A DNA stretch of 50,486 nt from the NCBI RefSeq assembly GCF_003336425.1, contig NZ_QEIO01000024.1, positions 1-50,486 of the forward strand, in the 5' to 3' direction. The DNA comes from Marinitenerispora sediminis. GTDB lineage: Bacteria; Actinomycetota; Actinomycetes; Streptosporangiales; Streptosporangiaceae. This document shows, piece by piece, positions 2,890 to 15,315 of this stretch. Both the position numbers and the translations under genes were made by a program. Each line of letters starts with the position of its first letter. Position 1 is the first letter of the stretch. The notes beneath the pieces were generated by a model. It was given only the letters and a program-made list of their open reading frames with translations, was not told where the DNA came from and searched no databases.

Positions 2890-4374
2890 TCACAGGTGCC
2901 GCAGCGGTGCCGTGATGGGCCGGTCGTCCCAGAGGATCTGGGAGAACACCCCGATGGCCAGACACCACGCGCTGGACAGCAGCAGCACCGCCCACGGGTC
3001 GCCGGTGGCACCGGCCCACAGAGCGCTCAGCGGGCGGGCCGCGTCCTCTTCCGCGAAGGCCGGGGCGACCGCCACCAACCCGATCAGGCTGACCAGGAGC
3101 CCGTGCGCCAACCCCATCGCGGCCACCCCGGTGGAGCGGCGCAGGCAGGCCGACGCGGACAGCCCGTGGTTGCGCCCCTCGATGACCAGGTATCCCCACG
3201 CCACCCCGGCCAGCGCCGCGAAGGCCCACCAGTGCTGCGGGGAGTCGAGCCGGGCCCGCTGCCACCAGTCCGGCAGCGCCACCAGCGCGACCAGGCCGAC
3301 GGCCGCCGCAGCGGGCAGCCGGAGCAGCCACTGGGCGGCCCACAGCGCGCCCAGGCCGATGGCGCCCGCCGCGATCAGCGCATAGCACGCGGCGGCGGCC
3401 AGCGCCGCCATACCGAAGTGGCCGCCGCCCGCTGCAAGGGCCACCGCCCCCAGGCCACCCGCGACGGCGGCGTACAACGGCAGGTACCCCACCCACTGGG
3501 TGGGCTCGCAGAGCGCCGCGACCGCGAGCACCCGGAAGCGGGGTAGCAGATGGCGTTCGGCCACCGCAAGGTTGATCGCACGGTCATCGGAGGTAGGCGC
3601 CTCGTAGTTCTGCAGGTCTGTCAGAGTCAGCTTCAGTTGCCCACTACGGTAACCACGTGCGGCGACAAGGGTGTCGATCTCGGCCTCGACCTCCTCGGGA
3701 TCCGCTCCGGCCAAAAACGGGTGTGAGTGCCGGGCATCGAGACAGGCAGCCCAATCCGCCCTCGCCTCACGGGCGCGGCGGAGCAGCAAGTGTTCCGTGT
3801 CGCCTCCGAAGACTTGGCCCATGCGTATCTCCGTTGGCTCATCCGTCATCTCGTCTTCGGAGAGCCATACCGTCCCGGCCGCTCGCCGGTAGCGGAACGG
3901 CTCGCTCAGGGTCAGGAACCGGAATCGAGCAGCCAGGGGACGCAGACGGCGAGCCACCACCGGATCCATCTCCGGGGCGGACAGGCTGCGCCAGGCCGCT
4001 TCGGCCAGTAGGCAGAGCCGCGCCCAGTGATCCCGCTCGTCGTCAGCCCCAGGGACATTCGCAGACCTCGTCATCTGCTCGTGCGGATGGTGGAGGATGG
4101 CACGCAGCATGTCCTCGTGAGTTGCCAACCATGCAGCGGCGTCGCCGATGGCAGCTTCCACTTCCGTCTCCGACTCCACCCTGGTGGTATGGAGGGACCA
4201 CAATTTCTGCAGCTCCGACGACAGCGGCTCCCTGAGCTTTCGGGCGTCGTCGTGGCCGGCTCCTGGATCGCGAGACCGTTCAGCCGCATCCAACACACCG
4301 CCCGCGAGGCGCACGTACAGCTCCGGGGGTGGCGACGCGCCTGTGTCACTCCCAGCGTCCGGCCCCGCTGGCAC
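2890..4374 (-). CDS. Six-helix membrane protein, last gene of the type III CRISPR operon (candidate effector)
   Basis: A 494-residue protein I cannot assign to a named family. Residues 1-290 are hydrophilic and predicted cytosolic, with helical, charged sequence. Residues about 295-316, 319-348, 353-370, 382-399, 416-440 and 459-481 are six hydrophobic segments, with a short charged C-terminal tail. The GTG start lies 2 nt after the stop of the CARF-domain gene and is preceded by GGGAG, so the two are tightly coupled. Membrane proteins linked to CARF domains are known type III ancillary effectors activated by cyclic oligoadenylates. Here the sensor and membrane parts seem to be separate proteins. 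A role as membrane-acting abortive-infection effector is inferred from context and topology only. It could instead be an unrelated membrane protein captured at the operon end. Confidence 0.75.
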   Translation of the reverse strand: MPAGPDAGSDTGASPPPELYVRLAGGVLDAAERSRDPGAGHDDARKLREPLSSELQKLWSLHTTRVESETEVEAAIGDAAAWLATHEDMLRAILHHPHEQMTRSANVPGADDERDHWARLCLLAEAAWRSLSAPEMDPVVARRLRPLAARFRFLTLSEPFRYRRAAGTVWLSEDEMTDEPTEIRMGQVFGGDTEHLLLRRAREARADWAACLDARHSHPFLAGADPEEVEAEIDTLVAARGYRSGQLKLTLTDLQNYEAPTSDDRAINLAVAERHLLPRFRVLAVAALCEPTQWVGYLPLYAAVAGGLGAVALAAGGGHFGMAALAAAACYALIAAGAIGLGALWAAQWLLRLPAAAAVGLVALVALPDWWQRARLDSPQHWWAFAALAGVAWGYLVIEGRNHGLSASACLRRSTGVAAMGLAHGLLVSLIGLVAVAPAFAEEDAARPLSALWAGATGDPWAVLLLSSAWCLAIGVFSQILWDDRPITAPLRHL

Positions 4375-4376
4375 CG

Positions 4377-5336
4377 TCAGGACTCCCGGCTCGGCAAGAG
4401 GGTACGGAGTCCCTCACCGAACGGCGTGGTCCGCCAGTGTCCTTCGGGCTCCTCGACGTAGGCATACCCCTCCAACAGCCGAGATCGGTGCGGTGGGAGG
4501 CGGAATACACCGTCCTTGTCAGTCGGACGCAGCTCCACGGCCACCATCCGGGGACTGAGCGGCCGCACTGGGATGTCGATGAAGTCGTGGGACAACTCGT
4601 GGATTACCACGGCCCGCACCGACCTGACCTCACGCTTCTTCCCGCCATCGGCACGCGCCAGGCCGAGCATGCCCTCGGCGATCCCAAGCCAGTAGAAGCC
4701 AGCCGCCTTATAGCCCCCAGTCAAGTGGAAGACATAGTCCTGCTCCGGGCCGGCGAGCCGTTCGATGAGGTGACGGGCGAGCGTCCCGAGTTGGCGCATC
4801 GCGAGGCGGAAGCCCTCGCCGCTGCCCACGTCCATGCCTGGCACCCGCACGATGAGGACCTGCCCCCGGGCCTCCTCGGACCCCTGGTCGGGCTCGTGCA
4901 GGTAGCGGATGCGGGACAGGTCGCCGTCGGTGAGAGCGACCGCGTCCCACAGTGCCGCCCGCAGCGCCCCGGGGGTGTCGCTGGCGATAAGGACCACGAT
5001 GTCGTCCGCGCCGGCGCGCACCTTTTCAGGCGGTTCGGCGGCGTTCTCGTCGGCGTGGCGGGCGAGCGTGGTGAGCTCGGCGCTGAGGTTGCTCGGCCAA
5101 TCGTGCACTCGGAATTCGGCGGCGGCCGCGCGCAGCAGTTCCGATTCTGGGCTTCCCGGAGTGAGCGCGGCTCGCAGGAAGTCCTGCACGCCCGTGTCGC
5201 CGAGGGGGACGAGTTTCAGATCGGGGGCGCTCGGCACTGCCGGGCTGTTGTGCTCACGCTTCGCCGCCTCCTTCTCCAGCCAAGCGTGGAGCTTGTTCCG
5301 GAGGCTGAGCCCCACCGTCACCAGGTGAACGGTCAT
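4377..5336 (-). CDS. CARF-domain protein (Cas_APE2256/TIGR02619-like), probable cyclic-oligoadenylate sensor
   Basis: A 319-residue protein. The N terminus HLVTVGLSLRNKL (4-16) matches the first strand and loop of CARF domains of the APE2256 family, whose hallmark is VGTSLxxN. VFHLTGGYKAAGF (202-214) matches the second ligand-contacting motif, N/H-x-TGGYK. Between them is a Rossmann-like core with ADDIVVLIASD and VLIVRVPG strands. The C-terminal 60 residues (RLPPHRSRLLEGYAYVEE, TTPFGEGLRTLL) look like a small winged-helix domain. No HEPN RxxxxH motif or PD-D/ExK nuclease motif is visible. In type III systems CARF proteins bind cyclic oligoadenylates made by Cas10. The ATG overlaps the stop of the upstream RAMP gene (ATGA), and the membrane gene follows within 2 nt. 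Confidence 0.8.
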   Translation of the reverse strand: MTVHLVTVGLSLRNKLHAWLEKEAAKREHNSPAVPSAPDLKLVPLGDTGVQDFLRAALTPGSPESELLRAAAAEFRVHDWPSNLSAELTTLARHADENAAEPPEKVRAGADDIVVLIASDTPGALRAALWDAVALTDGDLSRIRYLHEPDQGSEEARGQVLIVRVPGMDVGSGEGFRLAMRQLGTLARHLIERLAGPEQDYVFHLTGGYKAAGFYWLGIAEGMLGLARADGGKKREVRSVRAVVIHELSHDFIDIPVRPLSPRMVAVELRPTDKDGVFRLPPHRSRLLEGYAYVEEPEGHWRTTPFGEGLRTLLPSRES

Positions 5337-7693
5337 CGCCCTCTCGACGCCCCTTTCCTCGAAAACCGGTCCCGGATGCTAGGCAGCACCGGATAGTGCG
5401 CGAATTCTTCCAGAGTCATGGTCCTGGTCTTCGAGGCAGGGAGCCGGTCCCGCCACTGGGCGGAGAGCAGCAGCGCGTCCACCCGCTCGACGTGCCGGAG
5501 TTCGACCGGCTCAGGGCGCTTCGCGCGAGCGGCCTCCTCCCGTTCCCAAGCGAGCAGGGCACCGTCGAAGGCGTCCAGGTAGCGCTGTACCTCGTCCGAC
5601 CCCACGGCGCGGAAGCCCGCCGCCGCGTCCAGGCTGCGGGTCCGCTCGCGGGGGTCCGTGAGGCGCAGCCGCAGGGTGATGTGGATGCTGCCCAAACCCA
5701 GCGGCTTGCCGAGGCCGATCTTGTGGGCGTACGCGGGGCCGAGGTCCTTGGCGGCGGACTTGCTACCCGGCTCCGCGCCGACCGGGTTGCCGAGGTGCAG
5801 GACGCGCAGCAGCGCGCCCAGCTCGGCGTCGGTCAGGTTGCGGAAGGTGATCCGGGCGTGGAACGTCAGGCCCGCGCGGAGCGGCACGATGTCGCGTTCG
5901 GTGTCGCCGGGCGGTTGCGTCGCGGACCACCGCTCGCGGGCGTCCTTGAGTTCCGGGGGCACGTCCAGCTCCGGGGGCGCGTCGGAGCCGTCGGGCTTGG
6001 TGGCGTGGCGGTGGAGGTAGGTCTTGTAGCCGGTGAGGCGGATCCTGTCCTGGTTCTCCTGGGACCAGGTGTTCAGGCGGGGGTTCTCCTCCCAGCAGCT
6101 GGGGTGGTTCTGAACGAGGTACTGTCCGAACGCCGTGCGATGCGGTGAGAGGAGCTGGACCCGCAGGGGCGTTCTGTCATCCGGGTTCTCGTCGCTGCTC
6201 ACCGCCGAGCCGACCGATACCCGTCCACGCACGGCGAGCGGTCTGTCGTCGTCGCTCGTGCACAGGTCGATGTCGCCGAAAAGGGCACGGGGAACGTCGA
6301 TCGCACGGCCGGTTGTCTCCCCCATCAGCGGTTCGGGGACCGCCACGCGGATGGGATCGAAGTCGCCGACCGCGATCCGGTAGCCCCCAGCCCGGCCGAA
6401 GGAGAGCACTTCTCCTGATTCATCAGCCCGGAACCAGACCGGTTCGATCCCTTGAGCCGGGAGGCCGCCGCCACGGCCGTACGGAAGCAGTCGCCGCTTC
6501 GACTCCTCCTCGTTCAGCTCCGCATCGATGTCTCTGACCCGGAGATATCCGGGAAAGTTCTGCTGCTGATACTGAGTGACCTGTTCAGATGATTCGAATT
6601 CCGTGATGAGTCGCTCCGGAACGGAAAGGAGGTCACCTCGGAAGCCGTCCGGCATCGGGAAGAGGTACAGGTGCGTCCGCTGACCGGCCGCCACACCGGT
6701 CAGGACGATCACGCACCGCACGATCTCGTGGTTCTGGTAGCCCTGGCGGGTCCGCTGAAACTCGGACGCCCGCTCCCGACTCGGGAACACTCGCTCGACC
6801 TCCTGATACCCGCCATCGGGATCGGGCGGCGGATCCAGCGCATACACGATGCGGAACTGGAAGTGCCGATGATGCGGGTCCTCCATGGGGCCGTAGGTGT
6901 TGTCGTTCGGCGGGATCAGGAACGTGCGGTGGGGAAACTCGTGTTCCGCGATGCAGCGCTGGAAGTCCGTGAATGACATCTCCAGCGGCAGCTTGGAGGG
7001 GCTGCGTTTGATCCGCCACCCGTCGCCGCCGCGGAAGAGAAAACCGATCTTGGTCTCGACATTGCCTGAGTGCTTCGCCTTGTACTGGTCGTGGAGGCGC
7101 GACATGACCCATTGGGAGCGATTCAACGGTCTGTCCTTGCCCCCCTTGACCTTGATCGGCGCCCGGAAGAACAGCTGCGGGGTGTTGACCGGCCCCACCT
7201 CTCCCCCGGTCAGCATCCGAAGGTAGTCGCGGAGCATCCCACGCAACGACGATCCCGGAATGGCCGGACGCCCATTGACACGCAATGAACGCGTCGACTC
7301 GGGATTCTGCGGATCCGTGGCCCCGATGAAGAGCGGCGTCAGGTTCTGGATCCGCAGGTCGATCCATCCGGTGTGAGTGCCCGGAATCCGCCGGTCGTGG
7401 CTCCTCAGCAGCTCCTCCTGCCGCAGGGTCTCCCCGACGGACGTCTGGAGGCGCTCCGCCGGCATGGGGTGGTCGGGCAGCGGCACCAGGCCGTAGGGGG
7501 CCAGGGCCCGGTTGCGGGGCAACCTTCCCTCGTCGCCGATCGAGCCGCCTTTCGCCTGGCGGGAAGGCCGATCGCCACCGGAACGGGGTGGCCTGGGCTG
7601 TCGGCGTACCGCGTCGGTTTGCTTCGTCTTCCGCATGATGTTGGGGTTCGGTCGCACCCCGTCCGTCGGGGACGTCGGTTTCGGCTCGCTCAT
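5333..7693 (-). CDS. CRISPR-associated RAMP protein, TIGR03986-like
   Basis: A 786-residue RAMP-superfamily protein. After about 80 disordered, basic and proline-rich residues, the RAMP fold starts with GWIDLRIQNLTPLFIG and the typical loop RPAIPGSSLRGMLRDYLR. Near the C terminus HKIGLGKPLGLGSIHITL is the glycine-rich loop found in TIGR03986 proteins. The family is found in type III loci with Csx10, Csx19 and Cas7-like proteins, and probably contributes backbone or end subunits to the crRNA-guided complex. ATG 7693 overlaps the csx19 stop by 4 nt; upstream in-frame sequence only shadows csx19. It is larger than most RAMPs, with a long insertion between the two motifs. Confidence 0.85.
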   Translation of the reverse strand: MSEPKPTSPTDGVRPNPNIMRKTKQTDAVRRQPRPPRSGGDRPSRQAKGGSIGDEGRLPRNRALAPYGLVPLPDHPMPAERLQTSVGETLRQEELLRSHDRRIPGTHTGWIDLRIQNLTPLFIGATDPQNPESTRSLRVNGRPAIPGSSLRGMLRDYLRMLTGGEVGPVNTPQLFFRAPIKVKGGKDRPLNRSQWVMSRLHDQYKAKHSGNVETKIGFLFRGGDGWRIKRSPSKLPLEMSFTDFQRCIAEHEFPHRTFLIPPNDNTYGPMEDPHHRHFQFRIVYALDPPPDPDGGYQEVERVFPSRERASEFQRTRQGYQNHEIVRCVIVLTGVAAGQRTHLYLFPMPDGFRGDLLSVPERLITEFESSEQVTQYQQQNFPGYLRVRDIDAELNEEESKRRLLPYGRGGGLPAQGIEPVWFRADESGEVLSFGRAGGYRIAVGDFDPIRVAVPEPLMGETTGRAIDVPRALFGDIDLCTSDDDRPLAVRGRVSVGSAVSSDENPDDRTPLRVQLLSPHRTAFGQYLVQNHPSCWEENPRLNTWSQENQDRIRLTGYKTYLHRHATKPDGSDAPPELDVPPELKDARERWSATQPPGDTERDIVPLRAGLTFHARITFRNLTDAELGALLRVLHLGNPVGAEPGSKSAAKDLGPAYAHKIGLGKPLGLGSIHITLRLRLTDPRERTRSLDAAAGFRAVGSDEVQRYLDAFDGALLAWEREEAARAKRPEPVELRHVERVDALLLSAQWRDRLPASKTRTMTLEEFAHYPVLPSIRDRFSRKGASRGR

Positions 7694-8421
7694 GCTCCTC
7701 GGCCTCCCGCTGCCGGGTCGGGTCTGGTCGTCCGGAAACCTGTGAGCCGGTGGAACACCACCCCCACCGCCCCCGTAGCCGGGTCCTCCGCCCAGTACTC
7801 GCGGACGGTGAGCCAACTGCCGTAGCCCTTCTCGCCGTCCGGTTCCGGGGCCTGCCACTCGACCGGATGGACGGCCGTGGACCCGGACCGGTCCGTGGCG
7901 ATGCACAGGGGGCCGATGCCCGGCCTGCTCTCGGGAAGCTGGGTGACCGTGCCGCCGAGCAGCAGGAACCACCGGTCCCGCGGCTGGAGCCAGGACGGGA
8001 GCCGGCCGACGTCCTCCGCGTCCCGCGACAGCCACGCCCGTTCGGCGCCCTCCCCGATGCGCAGTTCGGCCGACGGAGAGAACACGATCGCCTCCAGCAG
8101 TTGCCAGGCGTCGGACCGGTCGGCGGCCGGGGTCGGGGCGGAGAGCTGCTGCGTGGCCTGGTCGGTGCTGGACAGCCGCCACGTCTCATCGGGGCAGCCA
8201 CCGGTGATCCGGCCGTGGCCGAACTCCGCGAGCAGCCACTGCGGCTCCCTCGGGGCCACCGCGTCGAGCACACGGCAGCGGCGTTGTTCGCCGAACACGT
8301 CAGCGAAGGCCGCCGCGATCTCGTCGTCACCGAGTTCGCGCACCAGCACGCCGTGCGGCGCGGAAAGCTCGCCATCCTCCGGGGCGACTCCCGGTGAGCC
8401 CGTCGTGTCGTTCGTGGTCAT
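7690..8421 (-). CDS. csx19: Csx19-like CRISPR-associated protein (type III-D)
   Basis: A 243-residue protein placed between two RAMP genes with ATGA overlaps on both sides. The section PQWLLAEFGHGRITGG, followed by AWQLLEAIVFSPSAELRIGEGAERAWLSRD, resembles the Csx19 (TIGR03984) pattern of a W-L-x-A strand, a glycine turn and a later E-x-R-x-F/I segment. Csx19 is a non-RAMP subunit specific to type III-D complexes. The C-terminal half (VHPVEWQAPE, GYGSWLTVREYWAED) is not something I recognise. The match is from memory of the family pattern and is moderate; position beside Csx10 and TIGR03986 genes raises it. ATG 8421 is the first start that does not run deep into the preceding gene. Confidence 0.6.
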   Translation of the reverse strand: MTTNDTTGSPGVAPEDGELSAPHGVLVRELGDDEIAAAFADVFGEQRRCRVLDAVAPREPQWLLAEFGHGRITGGCPDETWRLSSTDQATQQLSAPTPAADRSDAWQLLEAIVFSPSAELRIGEGAERAWLSRDAEDVGRLPSWLQPRDRWFLLLGGTVTQLPESRPGIGPLCIATDRSGSTAVHPVEWQAPEPDGEKGYGSWLTVREYWAEDPATGAVGVVFHRLTGFRTTRPDPAAGGRGA

Positions 8422-10364
8422 CCGTTCCCCTCTCCTCCGGACGACGCTGCTCCGGACGACGCTGCTCCGGACGGCTGCGCTCTGGGCGACCGCGCTCCGG
8501 ACGGTGTTCCGGCCGCCGACGGATCGGCTCCGCCTCCGGCCTCCTTGTGCAGCTCGGCCAGCCAGTCGGCGGCCCGTGCCCGGTCCGGGCTGGCCGGGTC
8601 GTCGATCGCCCGCAGCAGGTCGGTCCGCTCCGTCTCCTCGCCCGGCCGGCGGGACACCAGCACCGCGGACCGCACCGTGAGCCGGCCGTGGCCCACACCC
8701 GCGCCGCCGCCGATGGAGTGGAACGGGACGGTGTAGAGCTCGCGGACGACCAGCGTGAGCAGGCCCCGCAGGGCGTCGTCGGCGTCGGCGGCGTCGAGGA
8801 CGACGCGGGCGACCCCGCCGGCCTCGACGTCGTCGGTGAACAGCCGGCCGTCGACGGTGTCGCCGAACAGCGTGTCGATCGTCGTGCGGGTGGTGCGCAA
8901 CCTCGTGCTTTCGGAGAGGACTCCGGGCGAGCGCAGCCGGAGCCGCGCCGGGCGCGGACCTCCGTCCCCGCCGGGCCCGGTGTCGCTTCCCCACCAGTGG
9001 GCGAACCAGTTATGGGCCGGGTCGCCCGAGACGTCCCACTCCGCTCCCGGCTGCTCGGCGGTGCCGGCGATCTCGCGCACCAGACCGCGTGCGGTGCGTT
9101 TGAACAGCGCGAAGACCGCGGTCCCGCCCAGCTCGGGCCGCCACTGCACGCGGCCGTCGGAGTAGCGCGGCCGGGTGCGGTGCGCGCGGTCCACCTCGCC
9201 GAGGCGGTCCGGCGCCGGCGTGTCGCCCACCAGCAGCACGCCGGGCCACGGCCCGGTGGCGGGCGCGCCGTCGAGGTCGTCGAACGGTGCGGGGACGAAG
9301 GACCGGGTGCTGCGCTCGGCGACGGCCAGTGTGACGACGAAGGTGTCGCGGCACCGGACGTCGGCACGCCGGGCGTCGAGTTCGTGGTGGAAGGCGGTGT
9401 GCGTCCGTTCGAGGTCGCGAGCGGTCCACCCGGCCCGCTCGTCGTGACCGGCTTCGGCCAGTGCGGCGGTCCGCAGGGCGGCGAGGGTGCCGTCCACCGC
9501 GGATTCCAGCCGAGCGTGGCGGTCGGAGGTTTCCAGCCCGTTGCGGGCCTCTTTCCAGCGCTCCTCCCATCCGCGGGCGTAGTAGGCTCCCCAGCCCTCC
9601 GGCGTGTGCAGGTCGTGGCGCCGGACATGCCATGCCTCGGCCACCACCTCCCCGTACCCGCGCCCGGTCCGGGCTCCGATGCGGATGCCGGCGGGCCCGG
9701 GGAGGCCGTCGTCAGATGTTTCGCCTTCGCTGTCGGCGGCGAGCCCGGCGGCGGCCGTCGAGACGAGCGCCAGCAGCCGCCCCTCGTCGCCGTCCGGCAC
9801 TCGCAGCCGCATCGTGACGGTGAACGACGTTCCGGCCGGCAGCACCTCCATCCGCCAGAACGCGCCGGGCGCGGCGGTGCCCGAATCGGGGTCGATCCGG
9901 TTGCCGACCCGGACGGTGATGTTCGCGTCTTCGGGGAGGACGGCCACCGCGTCGTCGATGTCGAGCGCGCTCATGGTCGCCGGTTCGGTGTCGGTCGCGG
10001 CGAACTCCGGGACCGCGGGTGCCCCGAACAGCGTGTCGGCCCAGCCGCGTCGTCCGGCCCCCGCGGCGCCGGTGGCGTCGGCGTGGACCGGTGGGTCGCA
10101 TCGGTCGGCCAGGTGGTGCCGGAGCAGTCCCGCGAGCGTGCTGGCCCGCAGTCGGGGTTCTCTGGTCACCGGGTCGCGGTCCAGGAGCTGGTCGACCTCG
10201 CTCTCGGCGGCGTGCGGCGCGCTGGGGGCGGCCGAGCCGATGTGGGTGTCGCCGAGGAGCCGCAGCCGCGTGCTGATCTCCCAGATCACCCGCGGCCCGG
10301 CGGGCGCGCCGCCGGCGAACTCGTCCAGGCGCTTCTCGAACACCTGGGGGTCCGTTCCCGTCAT
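8418..10364 (-). CDS. Double RAMP (Cas7-Cas7 fusion) of the type III complex
   Basis: A 648-residue protein with two RAMP units. The first (about residues 20-260) has the strand LRLLGDTHIGS, an ASTLAGLLRHHLADR helix and the glycine-rich loop GIRIGARTGRGYGEV. The second (about 330-590) has TFVVTLAVAERS, RLRTTRTTIDTLFGD and the loop HSIGGGAGVGHGRLTV. Fused Cas7 modules are typical of III-D and III-E lineages, where they bind the crRNA and can carry target-RNA cleavage aspartates. The last 45 residues are a low-complexity Ser/Gly/Ala tail encoded by 15-bp repeats near 8435-8475. ATG 10364 is preceded by GGAGAGG at 7 nt, better than the GTG at 10385. The stop overlaps the csx19 start. Confidence 0.8.
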   Translation of the reverse strand: MTGTDPQVFEKRLDEFAGGAPAGPRVIWEISTRLRLLGDTHIGSAAPSAPHAAESEVDQLLDRDPVTREPRLRASTLAGLLRHHLADRCDPPVHADATGAAGAGRRGWADTLFGAPAVPEFAATDTEPATMSALDIDDAVAVLPEDANITVRVGNRIDPDSGTAAPGAFWRMEVLPAGTSFTVTMRLRVPDGDEGRLLALVSTAAAGLAADSEGETSDDGLPGPAGIRIGARTGRGYGEVVAEAWHVRRHDLHTPEGWGAYYARGWEERWKEARNGLETSDRHARLESAVDGTLAALRTAALAEAGHDERAGWTARDLERTHTAFHHELDARRADVRCRDTFVVTLAVAERSTRSFVPAPFDDLDGAPATGPWPGVLLVGDTPAPDRLGEVDRAHRTRPRYSDGRVQWRPELGGTAVFALFKRTARGLVREIAGTAEQPGAEWDVSGDPAHNWFAHWWGSDTGPGGDGGPRPARLRLRSPGVLSESTRLRTTRTTIDTLFGDTVDGRLFTDDVEAGGVARVVLDAADADDALRGLLTLVVRELYTVPFHSIGGGAGVGHGRLTVRSAVLVSRRPGEETERTDLLRAIDDPASPDRARAADWLAELHKEAGGGADPSAAGTPSGARSPRAQPSGAASSGAASSGGEGNG

Positions 10365-10612
10365 GTCAGTGCCTCTCCGCTCCACGCGCGCGGGACGTCT
10401 CCCGGACCTGGACCGGTCCGCCCCGCGGCCGCCGATCGGATACCCCGGTCCCCTCGCGGCGCCCGGAACACGTCACTCGCCCGCTCCGAACGGGAGGCAG
10501 CCACCGGCCGAGGCCGGACGGCGACGTCCCGCGCCGCCCGCGGCCCCTGGGAACTCCTCCCGGTGGTCCAGGCCGACCGGCGCACGGACGTCTCCGGCCG
10601 CACACCGACCAT
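10361..10612 (-). CDS. Small hypothetical ORF inside the CRISPR operon
   Basis: An 83-residue frame between csx10 and the double-RAMP gene. Its ATG is preceded by a strong GGGAGGA Shine-Dalgarno, and its TGA overlaps the next ATG as ATGA, the same coupling used at most junctions here. The frame also extends upstream in phase to a GTG at 10741 that overlaps the csx10 stop, giving a possible 126-residue version. Against it, the product is basic and rich in Arg, Gly, Pro and Ala with no predicted fold, and third-position GC is roughly 80 percent, lower than the neighbours. It does not look like a helical Cas11. It may be a real small protein, or a translated leader that couples csx10 to the RAMP gene. 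Confidence 0.4.
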   Translation of the reverse strand: MVGVRPETSVRRSAWTTGRSSQGPRAARDVAVRPRPVAASRSERASDVFRAPRGDRGIRSAAAGRTGPGPGDVPRAWSGEALT

Positions 10613-10740
10613 GGCTCCTCCCTGTTCCTGCTCCTCCCGGCACGGCGGCCGACCGTACCGGCGGCCGGTCGGGGCCGGTGCTCGCACGGGACCGCCGGCG
10701 GTGCCGGTGCCCGCGGGTTCCGTCGACGCGCATGCCGCCA

Positions 10741-12651
10741 CTACACGGTCCCCGCCCTGTTCTCGGCCCGCTCCTCGTCATGGGGCCGGGCGCGGGCGGC
10801 GGCCTCGGCGAGCCAGGTGGTGACGAGGAGCAGGGCGAGCCGGTCGGCGACCCGCGGGTCGCCGAGCCAGCTCGTGGCGGCCGGGCTGAGCACGCCCGAT
10901 GCCGGGTCGGGGGCCGTGAGGTCGACCGGGGCGATCGCGCGGGCCAACGCCGCGTCAGCGTCCTCGAACGCACCGGCCCGCCACTCCGCCGGTGCCGTCG
11001 CCGCCGCCGTCAGCCAGGCGGGAAACGTGACTCGTTTGCCCTGCCACTCGACCCTGGCGGACTCGACCGCCTTCGCCGCCTTGCCGGTGAACGGCTTGAA
11101 CGGGGCCGCCAAGTGCGCCATCTTCCCGCCCTCCCCGGCCGCGACGCCGGCCAGTCGCTTCAGGGTGACCCCGGGGCCGGGCGCCGATGCCGCGGCGACC
11201 TCGCGCAGGCGGCCGAGCAGGCTCCTGGTGGGCAGCGGTCCCGCCTCGGCGCTGGCGGCGGCGACCGCGCGGGCCCGGTCGCGGACGACGCGGGCGCAGG
11301 CGTTCCACAGCAGCTTGTCGTAGAGAGCGGCGAGCGGGGCATCCTTCCCGGCTTCGGACCTGACGGCCGCCGCGAGCCCGTCCGACGACACCTGGGCGCT
11401 CTCCCCATTGGCGAGCGTCACCGGGGTGCCGGGCCCGCCTCCGTTCCGCCGGTACGGCGGGCCCGCCTCCCCGGCGGCGGTCGGCACCCTGTCCTCCGGC
11501 AACCGGGACAGGTCGGGCTCGGGCAGCAGCACGAAGGCGCCGTTGCCGTCCACCGTCCGGGTACCGAGCGGCACCGACTCAAGGGCGCGCACCTCCTCTG
11601 CCGCGAGGTCGCGCATGGCGCGCAGCCGGACCACGGAGCCGGGGGCCGCCGCCCAGCGCTGCGCCATCTCGGACCGGTAGCCGACGTGGTACCCGACCAG
11701 CTCGCACGGCTCGATGTGGCTGGCCTCGACCGCCACCGCGTCCGGTCCCACGACGCGTTCCGCCAGCCTCCGCACGGCGGCCGGCAGCGCGCCCGGGTGC
11801 GGCTGGCCGCGATCGTCCACGATCAGCGCCGGAGCCAGCACCACCAGGTCGCGGTGCTCGCCGGCCGGCCACGCGCTGGCCGGGCAGGCGGTGCGGTCCA
11901 CGGCGAGCGGTGAGTCCCCACCGGGTGTCCCCGGCAGGGTGCCGACCAGCACCCGGCCACCGTGCGCCCGGGTGCGGTCGGCGCCGAGGGTGACGGGGTG
12001 GCCGCCGCCGACCAGGATCGTCCGGATCTCGGCCGCCAGCGCGCGCAGCCCCGCCTCGTCCGGCGCGCGCAACTGCCACCGGGCCTCGAAGACCTGGCCG
12101 TGGTCGACGCTCGTAGTGAGGAACGGCGTCCCGGATCCCGGGCCCCCGCCGTCGCCGCGACCGAGGTACTGCTCCGTGCTCATGGCGGGCACCGCCCGGT
12201 AGCGGAGATCGGGGGTGACCAGCCCGTCGTAGGAACGGGTCCGCCCGCCCTCCCCTGTCCGGCCCGTGTCGCCGCCCCGGGCAGCCAGCGTGTCGACCAG
12301 TCCGACGCCGACACCTTTCTCGACGTGCGCCCGGAGCCACCGCGGTGCCGGGATGGTGGGGGTCGGCCGCATCCCCTCCGGCTCCAGCAGCGGGAACGCC
12401 GTCGCGAACCGGACGACCGCTCCGCGCGCCACCCACTCCGGCACCAGGTCCCGCCGCCCGGCGCGGTGCAGCACGGAGGCGAGCATGCCCCGCTGGACCC
12501 GCCCCTCGATCACGGCCGCCGACCGGACGAACAGCGGGTTGAGGTCGGTGCGCAGCACCATGGACTGCGTGGTGTGGTAGCGCAACCGGAGATAGCCGGT
12601 CACGCCGCCCCCTCCCGGTACGGGGGTGAACGCGGACTCGGTCACAGTCAC
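10741..12651 (-). CDS. csx10: Csx10-family RAMP protein (type III-D)
   Basis: A 636-residue Cas5-like RAMP. The N-terminal strand GYLRLRYHTTQSMVLRTD, followed by IEGRVQRGMLASVLHRAG, is typical of Csx10, where the first ferredoxin-like strand is followed by an R-G-x-L/M loop. Csx10 takes the place of Csm4/Cmr3 and caps the 5' end of the crRNA next to Cas10. GTG 12651 is chosen because AAGGGA lies 6 nt upstream; another GTG follows two codons later. Upstream in-frame sequence to 12885 is low-complexity and would overlap the Cas7 gene. It is separated from that gene by 169 bp, the only real gap in the operon, and its TAG stop overlaps a possible GTG start. Confidence 0.8.
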   Translation of the reverse strand: MTVTESAFTPVPGGGGVTGYLRLRYHTTQSMVLRTDLNPLFVRSAAVIEGRVQRGMLASVLHRAGRRDLVPEWVARGAVVRFATAFPLLEPEGMRPTPTIPAPRWLRAHVEKGVGVGLVDTLAARGGDTGRTGEGGRTRSYDGLVTPDLRYRAVPAMSTEQYLGRGDGGGPGSGTPFLTTSVDHGQVFEARWQLRAPDEAGLRALAAEIRTILVGGGHPVTLGADRTRAHGGRVLVGTLPGTPGGDSPLAVDRTACPASAWPAGEHRDLVVLAPALIVDDRGQPHPGALPAAVRRLAERVVGPDAVAVEASHIEPCELVGYHVGYRSEMAQRWAAAPGSVVRLRAMRDLAAEEVRALESVPLGTRTVDGNGAFVLLPEPDLSRLPEDRVPTAAGEAGPPYRRNGGGPGTPVTLANGESAQVSSDGLAAAVRSEAGKDAPLAALYDKLLWNACARVVRDRARAVAAASAEAGPLPTRSLLGRLREVAAASAPGPGVTLKRLAGVAAGEGGKMAHLAAPFKPFTGKAAKAVESARVEWQGKRVTFPAWLTAAATAPAEWRAGAFEDADAALARAIAPVDLTAPDPASGVLSPAATSWLGDPRVADRLALLLVTTWLAEAAARARPHDEERAENRAGTV

Positions 12652-12820: not shown

Positions 12821-13525
12821 TCACGCGCCCTCCGGGGACCGCTGCTCGCGCGGCGGCAGACCGGCCCACGCCAGGGTCGCCTCATGCTCGTCGGACGTGC
12901 TCGCCGAGCCGAGCCGGACGTCGATGCGTCCCCGCCCGCGGGTCTCGCGGTGACCGGCCTGGGTGGTGGCGAGCGCGGCGCGGGCGAGCAGCCGCAGGTG
13001 GTCGGCCCGGGGCTCGCCGTGCCACCGCAGGGGCGCCACCAGGTGGATCCCGGGGTTGAGCACCCGGTTGGTACGCAGCCGTCCTGGAATGGGAGCGCCG
13101 TCCGCGTCGACCTCCACGCCGCTCTCCAGGCTGGTGAACGCGTCGGTCACCGACCGGACCAGGACGGCGGCCAGTCCGTCCGGGGTCATGCCCGGGCGGT
13201 GGCCGCGCTGGTGCAGCGCGTAGGCGACGGCGGCGCGGATCGGCTCGGCGCACCGCGCGTCGTCGATCTGCACGAGCCGCTCCCGGTCGTGCCTTCGGGG
13301 AACCCCGAACACCTCCTCCGCCGCGTCCAGCAGGCCGGGCTCCGCCCGGACCACGCCGACGGCGGCGGCGCGCAGCCGGGCCGCGAGCCGGTGCCGGGGC
13401 AGGCGGGGCAGCCCGTGGTCGTCAGTGGCGATGTCGGTGTCGGCCGCGGTGCCGGCCACGCTGTTCCCCACGAACATCGCGGGAGATGTGATGTCGACGG
13501 TGACGAACTCCGGCCGGTCGCTCAT
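12821..13525 (-). CDS. Cas7-like RAMP protein
   Basis: A 234-residue single RAMP module. It opens with VTVDITSPAMFVGNSVAG, a RAMP first strand and loop, has LPRHRLAARLRAAAVGVV where the ASxLRG-type helix would be, and ends with the glycine/arginine-rich loop ETRGRGRIDVRLGSAS. A backbone role along the crRNA in the type III complex is expected. A conserved catalytic aspartate cannot be assigned without a structural alignment. ATG 13525 overlaps the cas10 stop by 4 nt. A 169-bp gap follows before csx10. Confidence 0.75.
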   Translation of the reverse strand: MSDRPEFVTVDITSPAMFVGNSVAGTAADTDIATDDHGLPRLPRHRLAARLRAAAVGVVRAEPGLLDAAEEVFGVPRRHDRERLVQIDDARCAEPIRAAVAYALHQRGHRPGMTPDGLAAVLVRSVTDAFTSLESGVEVDADGAPIPGRLRTNRVLNPGIHLVAPLRWHGEPRADHLRLLARAALATTQAGHRETRGRGRIDVRLGSASTSDEHEATLAWAGLPPREQRSPEGA

Positions 13526-15315
13526 GCGCCCTCCCCGCTCCGCACCGGCTCCTCCGCCAGCGCCACGTCGAGGTGGACGTCGAGCAGGTCGATGGCGTCG
13601 AGGAGTTCGCCCCGGGAGCACTCCGGCGGCAGCTCCGCGGCGACCCCCCGGGCCTTTCGCCGCTCCAGCTCGGGCTCAAGGGGCTCACCGTCGTACAGCA
13701 GCGTGCGCAGGTCCGACAGGACCCAGGACCGCTGCTCGGCCATGTCCGGGCTCCGCAGCACCCCGGGAGCACCGGAGCCGCCGTGCGCGTCGGCGAGGTA
13801 GCCGTCAAGGAAGGCCCGGAACCGGGTGCCGGTCATGGGCAGCGCGGTGCGCCCGTCAGTGCCGCTCTCACCACGCGCCGCCGCCAGGCTCCCGACCACC
13901 CGCTCCGGTGCGTCGAACCGCTGCGACCAGGCGACGACGTGGTCGTCGATAGCGCCGTCCGCCCGCTCGCCCTCCGCCTTCTTGAGCTGCTTCTTCCTGC
14001 GCTGCTCCGCCTTGAGCTGCTCCTTCGCGTGCTTGCACAGCGCCGCGCAGATGTCGTAGCCGACGGCGAGGGAGGACCCCACGGGCTGCACCGCGATCCC
14101 GACCCCCGCGGTGGGCACCCCGGTGGTCCGGGGCGGCAGGTCCGGGCCGTCCCACACCGGCCGGGCCCACGGTGCTCCCCGGTTCACCATGCGGTGGCGG
14201 GGGTCCTTCGGCCCTGTGGGCGCACCGTCCAGCCAGTCCAGCGCGAACCGGGTGACGCTCCACGCCAGCCGGGCGTCGCAGAGGATGGTGAGGTCGTCAC
14301 CGGCGACCACGAGCGGCCGGACCGGGACGAGCAGGGTGCGCCGTCGGCCGTGCTCCGGCGACCTGACGGCGGGACGCAGTGCGGAGCCGCCGTTCCCGCG
14401 CCCGGTGATGACCGGTTCACCGTCGTCCGTGAGCGTGATCGCGCGGGCGACGGCGCGGGTGATCGCCTCGGCGAGCCCGGCGGTGACCGCGTGGATGTCG
14501 GCCGACACGCGCCGCAGTTCCGCCGCGATCTCGCCGGGGGCGAGCTCCTGCGTGAATCTGGCGAGGAGGTCGCCGAGGCCGTTGAAGTCGAGGTGGATGA
14601 CGGCGAGGCGGCTGATGTCGCCGACGTCGCGGCCCAGTTCCTCCACGTCCGTGGGCAGGTCGAGGTCCTCGGTCCAGCCGTCGGGACGGGCGGCCGCGTC
14701 CAGCCACGCCTCTCGTTGTCTACGGTGCCACTGGCTGCCGACCCGGCGTGCCTCGACAATGTCATGTGCCACCCGCTCGGCAGGCCGGTCGGCGCCCCCG
14801 CGCCCCTTCGGCGGCTGGTCCACGACCTCGGCCGGCCGTCCGGTCACCTCGCAGAGCGCGGTGACGCCGAAGCCGCGTGCGGGCAGGTGCTCGACGGCCC
14901 GGCCCCGGGCCGTGGCGAGCTCGCCCGGTAGCGCGGCGAGCGCCTCGGCGAGCGTGCGCTGCGGCTCGTCCGGGCCGTAGGGGAGGTGCGCCACCACCGG
15001 CACCAGCCGGTCGGACCGCTTGCGCACCTCGCGGGTGTAGCGGCCGGTGAACTCGCGGGCCGCGGTGCGGTCCGCGAATCCGGCGACGAGGGTGCCGCCG
15101 TGCTCGCGTTCGAGGCTGTAGGTGGGAGGTTCCGCGCCGTGCCTCCGGTACAGCCTCTCGTCCAGCCACGCGCGCGTGGTGAGTTCGGCGACCATCTCGG
15201 CCCGGCCCACCGCGTCGAGCAGCCGCCGCGTCTCGAACACGAACGCCTGGATGCCGCGGAGGTCGACGCCGACGAGGACCCCCTCCGCCGCGGGTTCGTG
15301 TGGGCTGGTGGGCAC
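13522..15315 (-). CDS. cas10: Cas10 large subunit without HD domain, palm motif AGDD
   Basis: A 597-residue Cas10. The first palm domain begins at once with LVGVDLRGIQAFVF (14-27), the usual Cas10 opening, and no N-terminal HD nuclease is present. The second palm has HLDFNGLGDLL (241-251), with the metal-binding Asp, and VVAGDDLTILCD (336-347), the GGDD motif with the first Gly changed to Ala. Both catalytic aspartates remain, so cyclic oligoadenylate synthesis is plausible. Residues about 400-440 are Lys/Arg/Glu-rich and probably coiled coil (KAEQRRKKQLKKAEGE). GTG 15315 has AGGAGA 6 nt upstream; an ATG at 15399 lacks a ribosome site. It is the first gene of the operon and overlaps the next one by ATGA. 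The CARF gene downstream fits a signalling Cas10. Confidence 0.85.
   Translation of the reverse strand: MPTSPHEPAAEGVLVGVDLRGIQAFVFETRRLLDAVGRAEMVAELTTRAWLDERLYRRHGAEPPTYSLEREHGGTLVAGFADRTAAREFTGRYTREVRKRSDRLVPVVAHLPYGPDEPQRTLAEALAALPGELATARGRAVEHLPARGFGVTALCEVTGRPAEVVDQPPKGRGGADRPAERVAHDIVEARRVGSQWHRRQREAWLDAAARPDGWTEDLDLPTDVEELGRDVGDISRLAVIHLDFNGLGDLLARFTQELAPGEIAAELRRVSADIHAVTAGLAEAITRAVARAITLTDDGEPVITGRGNGGSALRPAVRSPEHGRRRTLLVPVRPLVVAGDDLTILCDARLAWSVTRFALDWLDGAPTGPKDPRHRMVNRGAPWARPVWDGPDLPPRTTGVPTAGVGIAVQPVGSSLAVGYDICAALCKHAKEQLKAEQRRKKQLKKAEGERADGAIDDHVVAWSQRFDAPERVVGSLAAARGESGTDGRTALPMTGTRFRAFLDGYLADAHGGSGAPGVLRSPDMAEQRSWVLSDLRTLLYDGEPLEPELERRKARGVAAELPPECSRGELLDAIDLLDVHLDVALAEEPVRSGEGA

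Follow-up and report, generated by a model that had tools for sequence, protein, structure and literature searches.

An AGDD-bearing Cas10 without an HD domain in a probable III-D-related operon with a CARF-RelE-type effector gene in Marinitenerispora sediminis

The window analysed here, a stretch of 50,486 nucleotides from Marinitenerispora sediminis (contig NZ_QEIO01000024.1), carries a type III CRISPR operon whose Cas10 lacks an HD domain and has AGDD in place of GGDD in its second palm domain. Judged from its sequence and surroundings, this Cas10 is most likely a working cyclase that would provide an ordinary messenger, probably cA4, to a Cami1-Cam3-type effector pair, the alanine being a neutral or tolerated change. 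Across the sequences compared, AGDD is a lineage-fixed motif variant, and one that has already been published.

Eight consecutive minus-strand genes make up the operon, in the order cas10, cas7, cas5, cas7, csx25/csx19, cas7 (TIGR03986), CARF gene and membrane-protein gene. None of the eight frames is interrupted, and neighbouring genes overlap by 4 nt at four of the seven junctions.

13522..15315, minus: cas10 (HD-less, palm1-palm2; PADLOC Cas10h), PADLOC PDLC02060 E=1.8e-141; best match of the AlphaFold model is the III-D Cas10 8s9t
12821..13525, minus: cas7-type RAMP gene, PADLOC Csm3 PDLC01585 E=2e-60, Cas7_IIIh 9.7e-46; first 4 nt shared with the end of cas10
10741..12651, minus: cas5-type gene, PADLOC Cas5_IIIh PDLC02156 E=5.3e-201; start uncertain (GTG at 12651, 12645 or 12603)
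8418..10364, minus: cas7-type RAMP gene, Pfam RAMPs 1.8e-21, PADLOC Cas7_IIId 5.3e-34
7690..8421, minus: csx25/csx19-like gene, PADLOC Csx25 E=1.3e-64; TIGR03984 (Csx19) 30.8 bits, missing its cut-off of 35
5333..7693, minus: cas7-type RAMP gene of the TIGR03986 family, NCBIfam TIGR03986 296.2 bits (cut-off 161.35)
4377..5336, minus: CARF effector of the CARF-RelE family (Cami1-type), RelE part predicted, PADLOC CARF7--CARF_RelE PDLC01938 E=6.2e-77 over residues 2-317 of 319
2890..4374, minus: membrane protein with a soluble N-terminal half (Mem_01, Cam3-like), PADLOC Mem_01 E=3.6e-118; hydrophobic stretches in residues 298-481

Type III-D systems are marked by Cas10d, a TIGR03986-type Cas7, Csx19 and a Csx10-type Cas5. 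In this operon, the profiles for Cas10d (PDLC02057, E=1.3e-38), Cas7_IIId (9.3e-65) and TIGR03986 (above its cut-off) were matched, Csx19 stayed below its cut-off and Cas5_IIId reached only 0.0045; by these profiles the operon is probably a III-D-related type III system. Some 375 bases without a called gene (10365-10740) lie between cas5 and the next cas7 in an otherwise tightly packed operon, and searches of the window for Rfam families and tRNAs returned none. The best PADLOC profiles for cas10 and cas5 carry the label 'III-H', but the Cas6_IIIh and the Can1 of family PDLC01901 are absent from the source genome by searches that were positive in the relative G488. In the 2025 classification, as set out in the passages of PMC12669027 used here, III-H combines an inactivated palm with an apparently active HD domain and lacks CARF or SAVED effector genes. 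We rejected this assignment for the window system, which has an intact palm, no HD domain and a CARF gene at 4377-5336. The PADLOC Cas10h/III-H models, which suit a clade of HD-less Cas10s with intact palms and CARF effectors, and the III-H of those passages are opposite systems under one name.

The cas10 frame (15315..13522) encodes 597 aa from a GTG start at 15315 with GAGGAG upstream; the PADLOC profiles were run on a longer, 625-aa reading of the frame. The match to PDLC02060 covers model positions 1-572 of 576 and, together with the Cas10d match, rules out chance resemblance. Pfam gave no HD domain match in the protein (E up to 0.1), and the palm 1 motif VGVDLRGIQAF lies close to the N-terminus. 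An AlphaFold model built from 25 sequences (mean pLDDT 75.5, pTM 0.71, residues 141-184 below 50) had 8s9t as its top Foldseek match (5.4e-13, TM-score 0.35), and VIA-align placed its residues 10-587 on chain residues -1 to 553 of that structure, with 410 residues aligned at Z 19.2 and rmsd 13.1. Given this rmsd and the low whole-chain TM-scores, the model does not reproduce the overall domain arrangement. Alignments to the best-fitting Csm1 chains covered ~235 residues at 3.0-3.5 A. In type III-A Csm1 chains, the part that aligns to the model begins only at residue ~230 or later, and what precedes it we take to be the HD domain.

The protein is a type III large subunit without an HD domain. 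Profile, fold and the invariant D340 and D341 give it the two palm domains and catalytic aspartate pair of a type III Cas10, and the HD nuclease, which belongs to only part of the family, is missing. The sequence-only reading had described a short, HD-less Cas10 with AGDD at this place, starting straight with the first palm, and this description holds: the frame is open, the profile matches, Pfam finds no HD, the palm 1 motif stands near the start and the model spans 8s9t from the first residue. Since a recognizable HD domain is reported for 3% of III-D systems (PMC11229360, in the passages used here), the HD-less state is usual for III-D. The nearest Cas10 of solved structure, the III-Dv Cas10 of Synechocystis (PDB 8s9t/u/v/x; PMC11026444), a sequence of 575 aa with a disrupted HD and two palms, is similar in layout but has GGDD, and is 18% identical to the window's Cas10 over aligned residues. 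According to the same source, it makes cOA that activates Csx1, the effector tested, and a palm mutation abolishes cOA.

Relatives of this Cas10 are concentrated in its own GTDB family. PDLC02060 had matches (E up to 0.001) in 70 of 341 genomes of that family, comprising 48 full-length clade Cas10s with the window's included, three broken or partial ones (G489, G494 and G499) and 19 weak matches; among 396 genomes sampled across the phylum, three were matched, the source genome and two weakly. The 48 clade members, chosen by a score >340 bits, leave out the broken Cas10 of locus L071 (G489), whose frame is split into several pieces (L071:2553-5243) and whose Cas6 and Can1 are also broken. AGDD is present in every one of the 48, all from one GTDB family, and we therefore rejected sequencing error or chance as its source. 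Outside the clade, 32 of 33 confident Cas10d proteins have GGDD, the one with AGDD coming from another family, and GGDD is universal (30/30) in those that share the clade's GTDB family. A wider reading of 44 Cas10d loci, 43 with a frame, gave 41 GGDD and two AGDD (L194 and L197); the loci read were the top-scoring part of longer lists, weaker ones included, and they take in some other type III Cas10s. L124 and L191 are two further, more distant AGDD Cas10s.

In a tree made by a quick method and containing some long branches, the 48 clade members lie on one side of the branch starred in it. The AGDD and GGDD labels need two changes on this tree, a number as low occurring in 0 of 500 shuffles, although near-copies favour such clustering. 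Named AGDD relatives are mostly Nocardiopsis and Streptomonospora, with one Glycomyces-titled record, MAGs and one distant Hydrogenedens MAG; being found by a pattern that contains AGDD, they (L191 included) are uninformative on its frequency. AGDD is listed first among the Cas10 variants of loci with known effectors by Hoikkala et al. (2024; PMC11229360), who thus name the variant found here, with neither count nor lineage in the passages used. Our literature search for Cas10 with AGDD gave no match beyond that paper, and one for Nocardiopsis Cas10 nothing relevant. The alanine had been called unusual in the sequence-only reading, a description that finds no support for a motif fixed in a clade, recurring outside it and named in print; the alignment with III-D Cas10 proteins proposed there returned AGDD as universal within the clade and rare elsewhere (1 of 33 confident non-clade Cas10d). 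Among GGDEF-family enzymes, cyclic di-GMP synthesis is reported for a diguanylate cyclase that has AGDEF (PMC3974145).

Two palm 2 motifs are listed below, the first of them flanked by VRPLVV before and LTILCD after.

14293..14304, minus: AGDD motif of palm 2, residues 338-341, from the translation; AGDD in 48/48 clade members
14572..14595, minus: palm 2 HLDFNGLG motif with D243 and N245; D and N invariant in 48/48 clade members and 33/33 other Cas10d

Eight residues (D243, N245, G248, G339, D340, D341, T343 and K431) are invariant in all 48 clade members and all 33 non-clade Cas10d proteins. Both palm 2 aspartates are kept, as had been claimed, and the otherwise degenerate palm core that had been put forward as a refuting outcome did not appear. 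A weak or dead cyclase, in a complex acting solely by crRNA-guided RNA cleavage through Cas7, has precedent in the inactivated palms described for some type III subtypes (PMC12669027); with the active-site residues invariant across the clade and CARF effector genes at 44 of 49 of its loci, we consider it very unlikely here.

The clade differs from other Cas10d proteins at residues 244, 338 and 410-413. Residue 411 is proline in 47 of the 48 members versus lysine in all 33 others; we dropped the notion that the clade had lost a universal lysine, as this position varies among other Cas10s. These differences at 410-413, and the fixation of AGDD against uniform GGDD in the other Cas10d proteins of the family, are what speaks for a shifted chemistry, in which the alanine and the other clade-specific palm 2 changes would lead to SAM-AMP-like products or to a different nucleotide or ring size. 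Against it, the Cas10 of L194 combines AGDD with the Cas10d lysine at 411, and the effector genes described below point the same way; we regard such a shift as very unlikely.

Effectors were counted at 49 loci, the 48 of the full-length clade members plus L071. A Can1-type gene (CARF-PDDEXK-CARF) lies within ~20 kb at 42 of them, confirmed by PADLOC at L073, L080 and L057 and otherwise called from phmmer matches to L073 and L057, with L085 and L086 included. The window and L072 have CARF-RelE plus Mem_01 in place of Can1, and L064 has both, so that CARF effector genes occur at 44 loci. Neither effector was found at five: L067, L095, L099 and L102, which are short stretches cut off by a contig end, and L066, where ~2.9 kb to the contig end held no Can1. 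Beside the distant AGDD Cas10 of L191 lies a CARF-HEPN gene (Csx1/Csm6 type). PADLOC families Unk_01 and Unk_06 recur near the operon in Nocardiopsis-type loci (L073:4554-4928, L073:5170-6435 and relatives).

Genes of the CARF-RelE and Mem_01 families also adjoin inside III-B operons at four loci from three genomes (L248, L249, L250 and L251). All four Cas10s at these loci have GGDD, and in PADLOC Cas10b ranks among their better matches, behind the general Cas10 models. L250 was confirmed to carry Cmr3, Cmr4 and Cmr1, and the CARF gene of L249 occupies two frames. The pair at L116 has Cmr1, Cmr6 and Cmr5 genes as neighbours, and we dropped its assignment to the GGDD III-D locus there, the Cas10 of this III-B set lying outside the stretch. 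The passages of PMC11229360 used here give cA4 as the activator of Cami1, Can1-2 and Csx1. The sharing of sensor families by GGDD and AGDD systems argues for a shared messenger. The same facts tell against the shifted chemistry considered above: the effector families at AGDD loci are ones said to respond to cA4, and CARF-RelE with Mem_01 also serves GGDD III-B loci. A variant of that idea, in which AGDD and the fixed palm 2 changes mark a different messenger (in ring size or by mixed nucleotides) to which Can1 and CARF-RelE have become co-adapted, seems to us scarcely probable. The earlier suggestion that the alanine could alter nucleotide choice or product size finds no support where AGDD loci keep effectors that PMC11229360 describes as cA4-activated. 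For the ordinary messenger that we favour, the cA4 specificity is most likely, carried over by analogy from the named effector families.

The window's own pair resembles Cami1-Cam3, with a membrane-protein gene immediately behind a CARF-RelE gene. Cam3 is described as always immediately downstream of Cami1, at 12 III-B loci (PMC11229360); the window's pair differs in trailing a III-D-related operon. The sequence-only reading had placed a CARF protein downstream of cas10, and its gene at 4377-5336 belongs to the same operon. Besides PDLC01938 (6.2e-77), its CARF domain is matched by PDLC01033 (5.1e-13 over residues 1-212). The RelE part is predicted from the whole-length match to the PADLOC family labelled CARF_RelE; the relative in L251 matches a second CARF_RelE profile, up to residue 326. 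In Pfam the protein had only a CARF-type match, below cut-off, and no RelE, and neither the protein nor its profile matched a RelE in the PDB. An AlphaFold model of it (two sequences, pLDDT 35.5) was discarded, and searches of viral contigs for CARF relatives and of plasmids for CARF plus Mem_01 were fruitless. Its identity is 48% to the protein of L064, 42% to that of L072 and 30-37% to those of the aligned III-B loci. The Mem_01 gene begins 2 nt after the CARF stop, directly downstream as for Cam3, and its product matches over its whole length a PADLOC profile described as 6TM with an N-terminal globular domain; simple hydropathy gave six windows, three of them overlapping. Mem_01 would correspond to Cam3.

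From the intact aspartates, the missing HD and the CARF gene in the operon, the prediction that this Cas10 should make cyclic oligoadenylate and should not cleave DNA appears sound, and we infer its catalysis, its product and the action of its effectors as follows. A crRNA-loaded complex would bind a foreign transcript, which would switch on palm 2. Palm 2, with AGDD and D243, would build a cyclic oligoadenylate from ATP, with cA4 the likeliest product; this messenger would bind the CARF domain of the CARF-RelE protein from the same operon and activate it. The predicted RelE part would then cleave mRNA and bring growth to a halt, the membrane protein perhaps taking part. The glycine-to-alanine change at the first motif position would date far back in one actinobacterial lineage, where it became fixed as a neutral or tolerated substitution.

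The crRNA for such a complex would be supplied in trans. A script seeking three exact 20-base words spaced as in an array found no CRISPR array in the window, nor was one among its largest repeat families, and with Cas6_IIIh missing from the genome this places the crRNA source elsewhere. Since 37 of 49 clade loci have Cas6_IIIh nearby, these absences could also be taken to mean that the locus is an orphan, without crRNA and silent in this strain whatever its motif, to which we assign a very low probability. All eight frames are open with their tight junctions, and the genome holds an apparent I-E operon (C1) and an apparent I-C operon with an array (C398), their gene names judged by eye from sequence starts plus a Cas1 profile. 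Several CRISPR arrays occur in the genome, and those on C34 and C258 have I-E-like repeats. Arrays with similar I-E-like repeats lie near two clade loci, and the source assembly, 99.32% complete in 441 contigs, may miss an array or a gene. One clade locus has an array with I-E-like repeats between its cas7 and cas10 genes (L056:11010-11647).

The exchange of effectors within the clade and the naming clash are side results of more use than AGDD itself. The CARF-RelE/membrane-protein pair, common to GGDD III-B operons and to this AGDD III-D-related operon, suggests that the two kinds of system share a messenger. A whole Cas10 lineage can have AGDD fixed and still retain its CARF effectors, so that this motif alone is no sign of a degenerate or altered cyclase.
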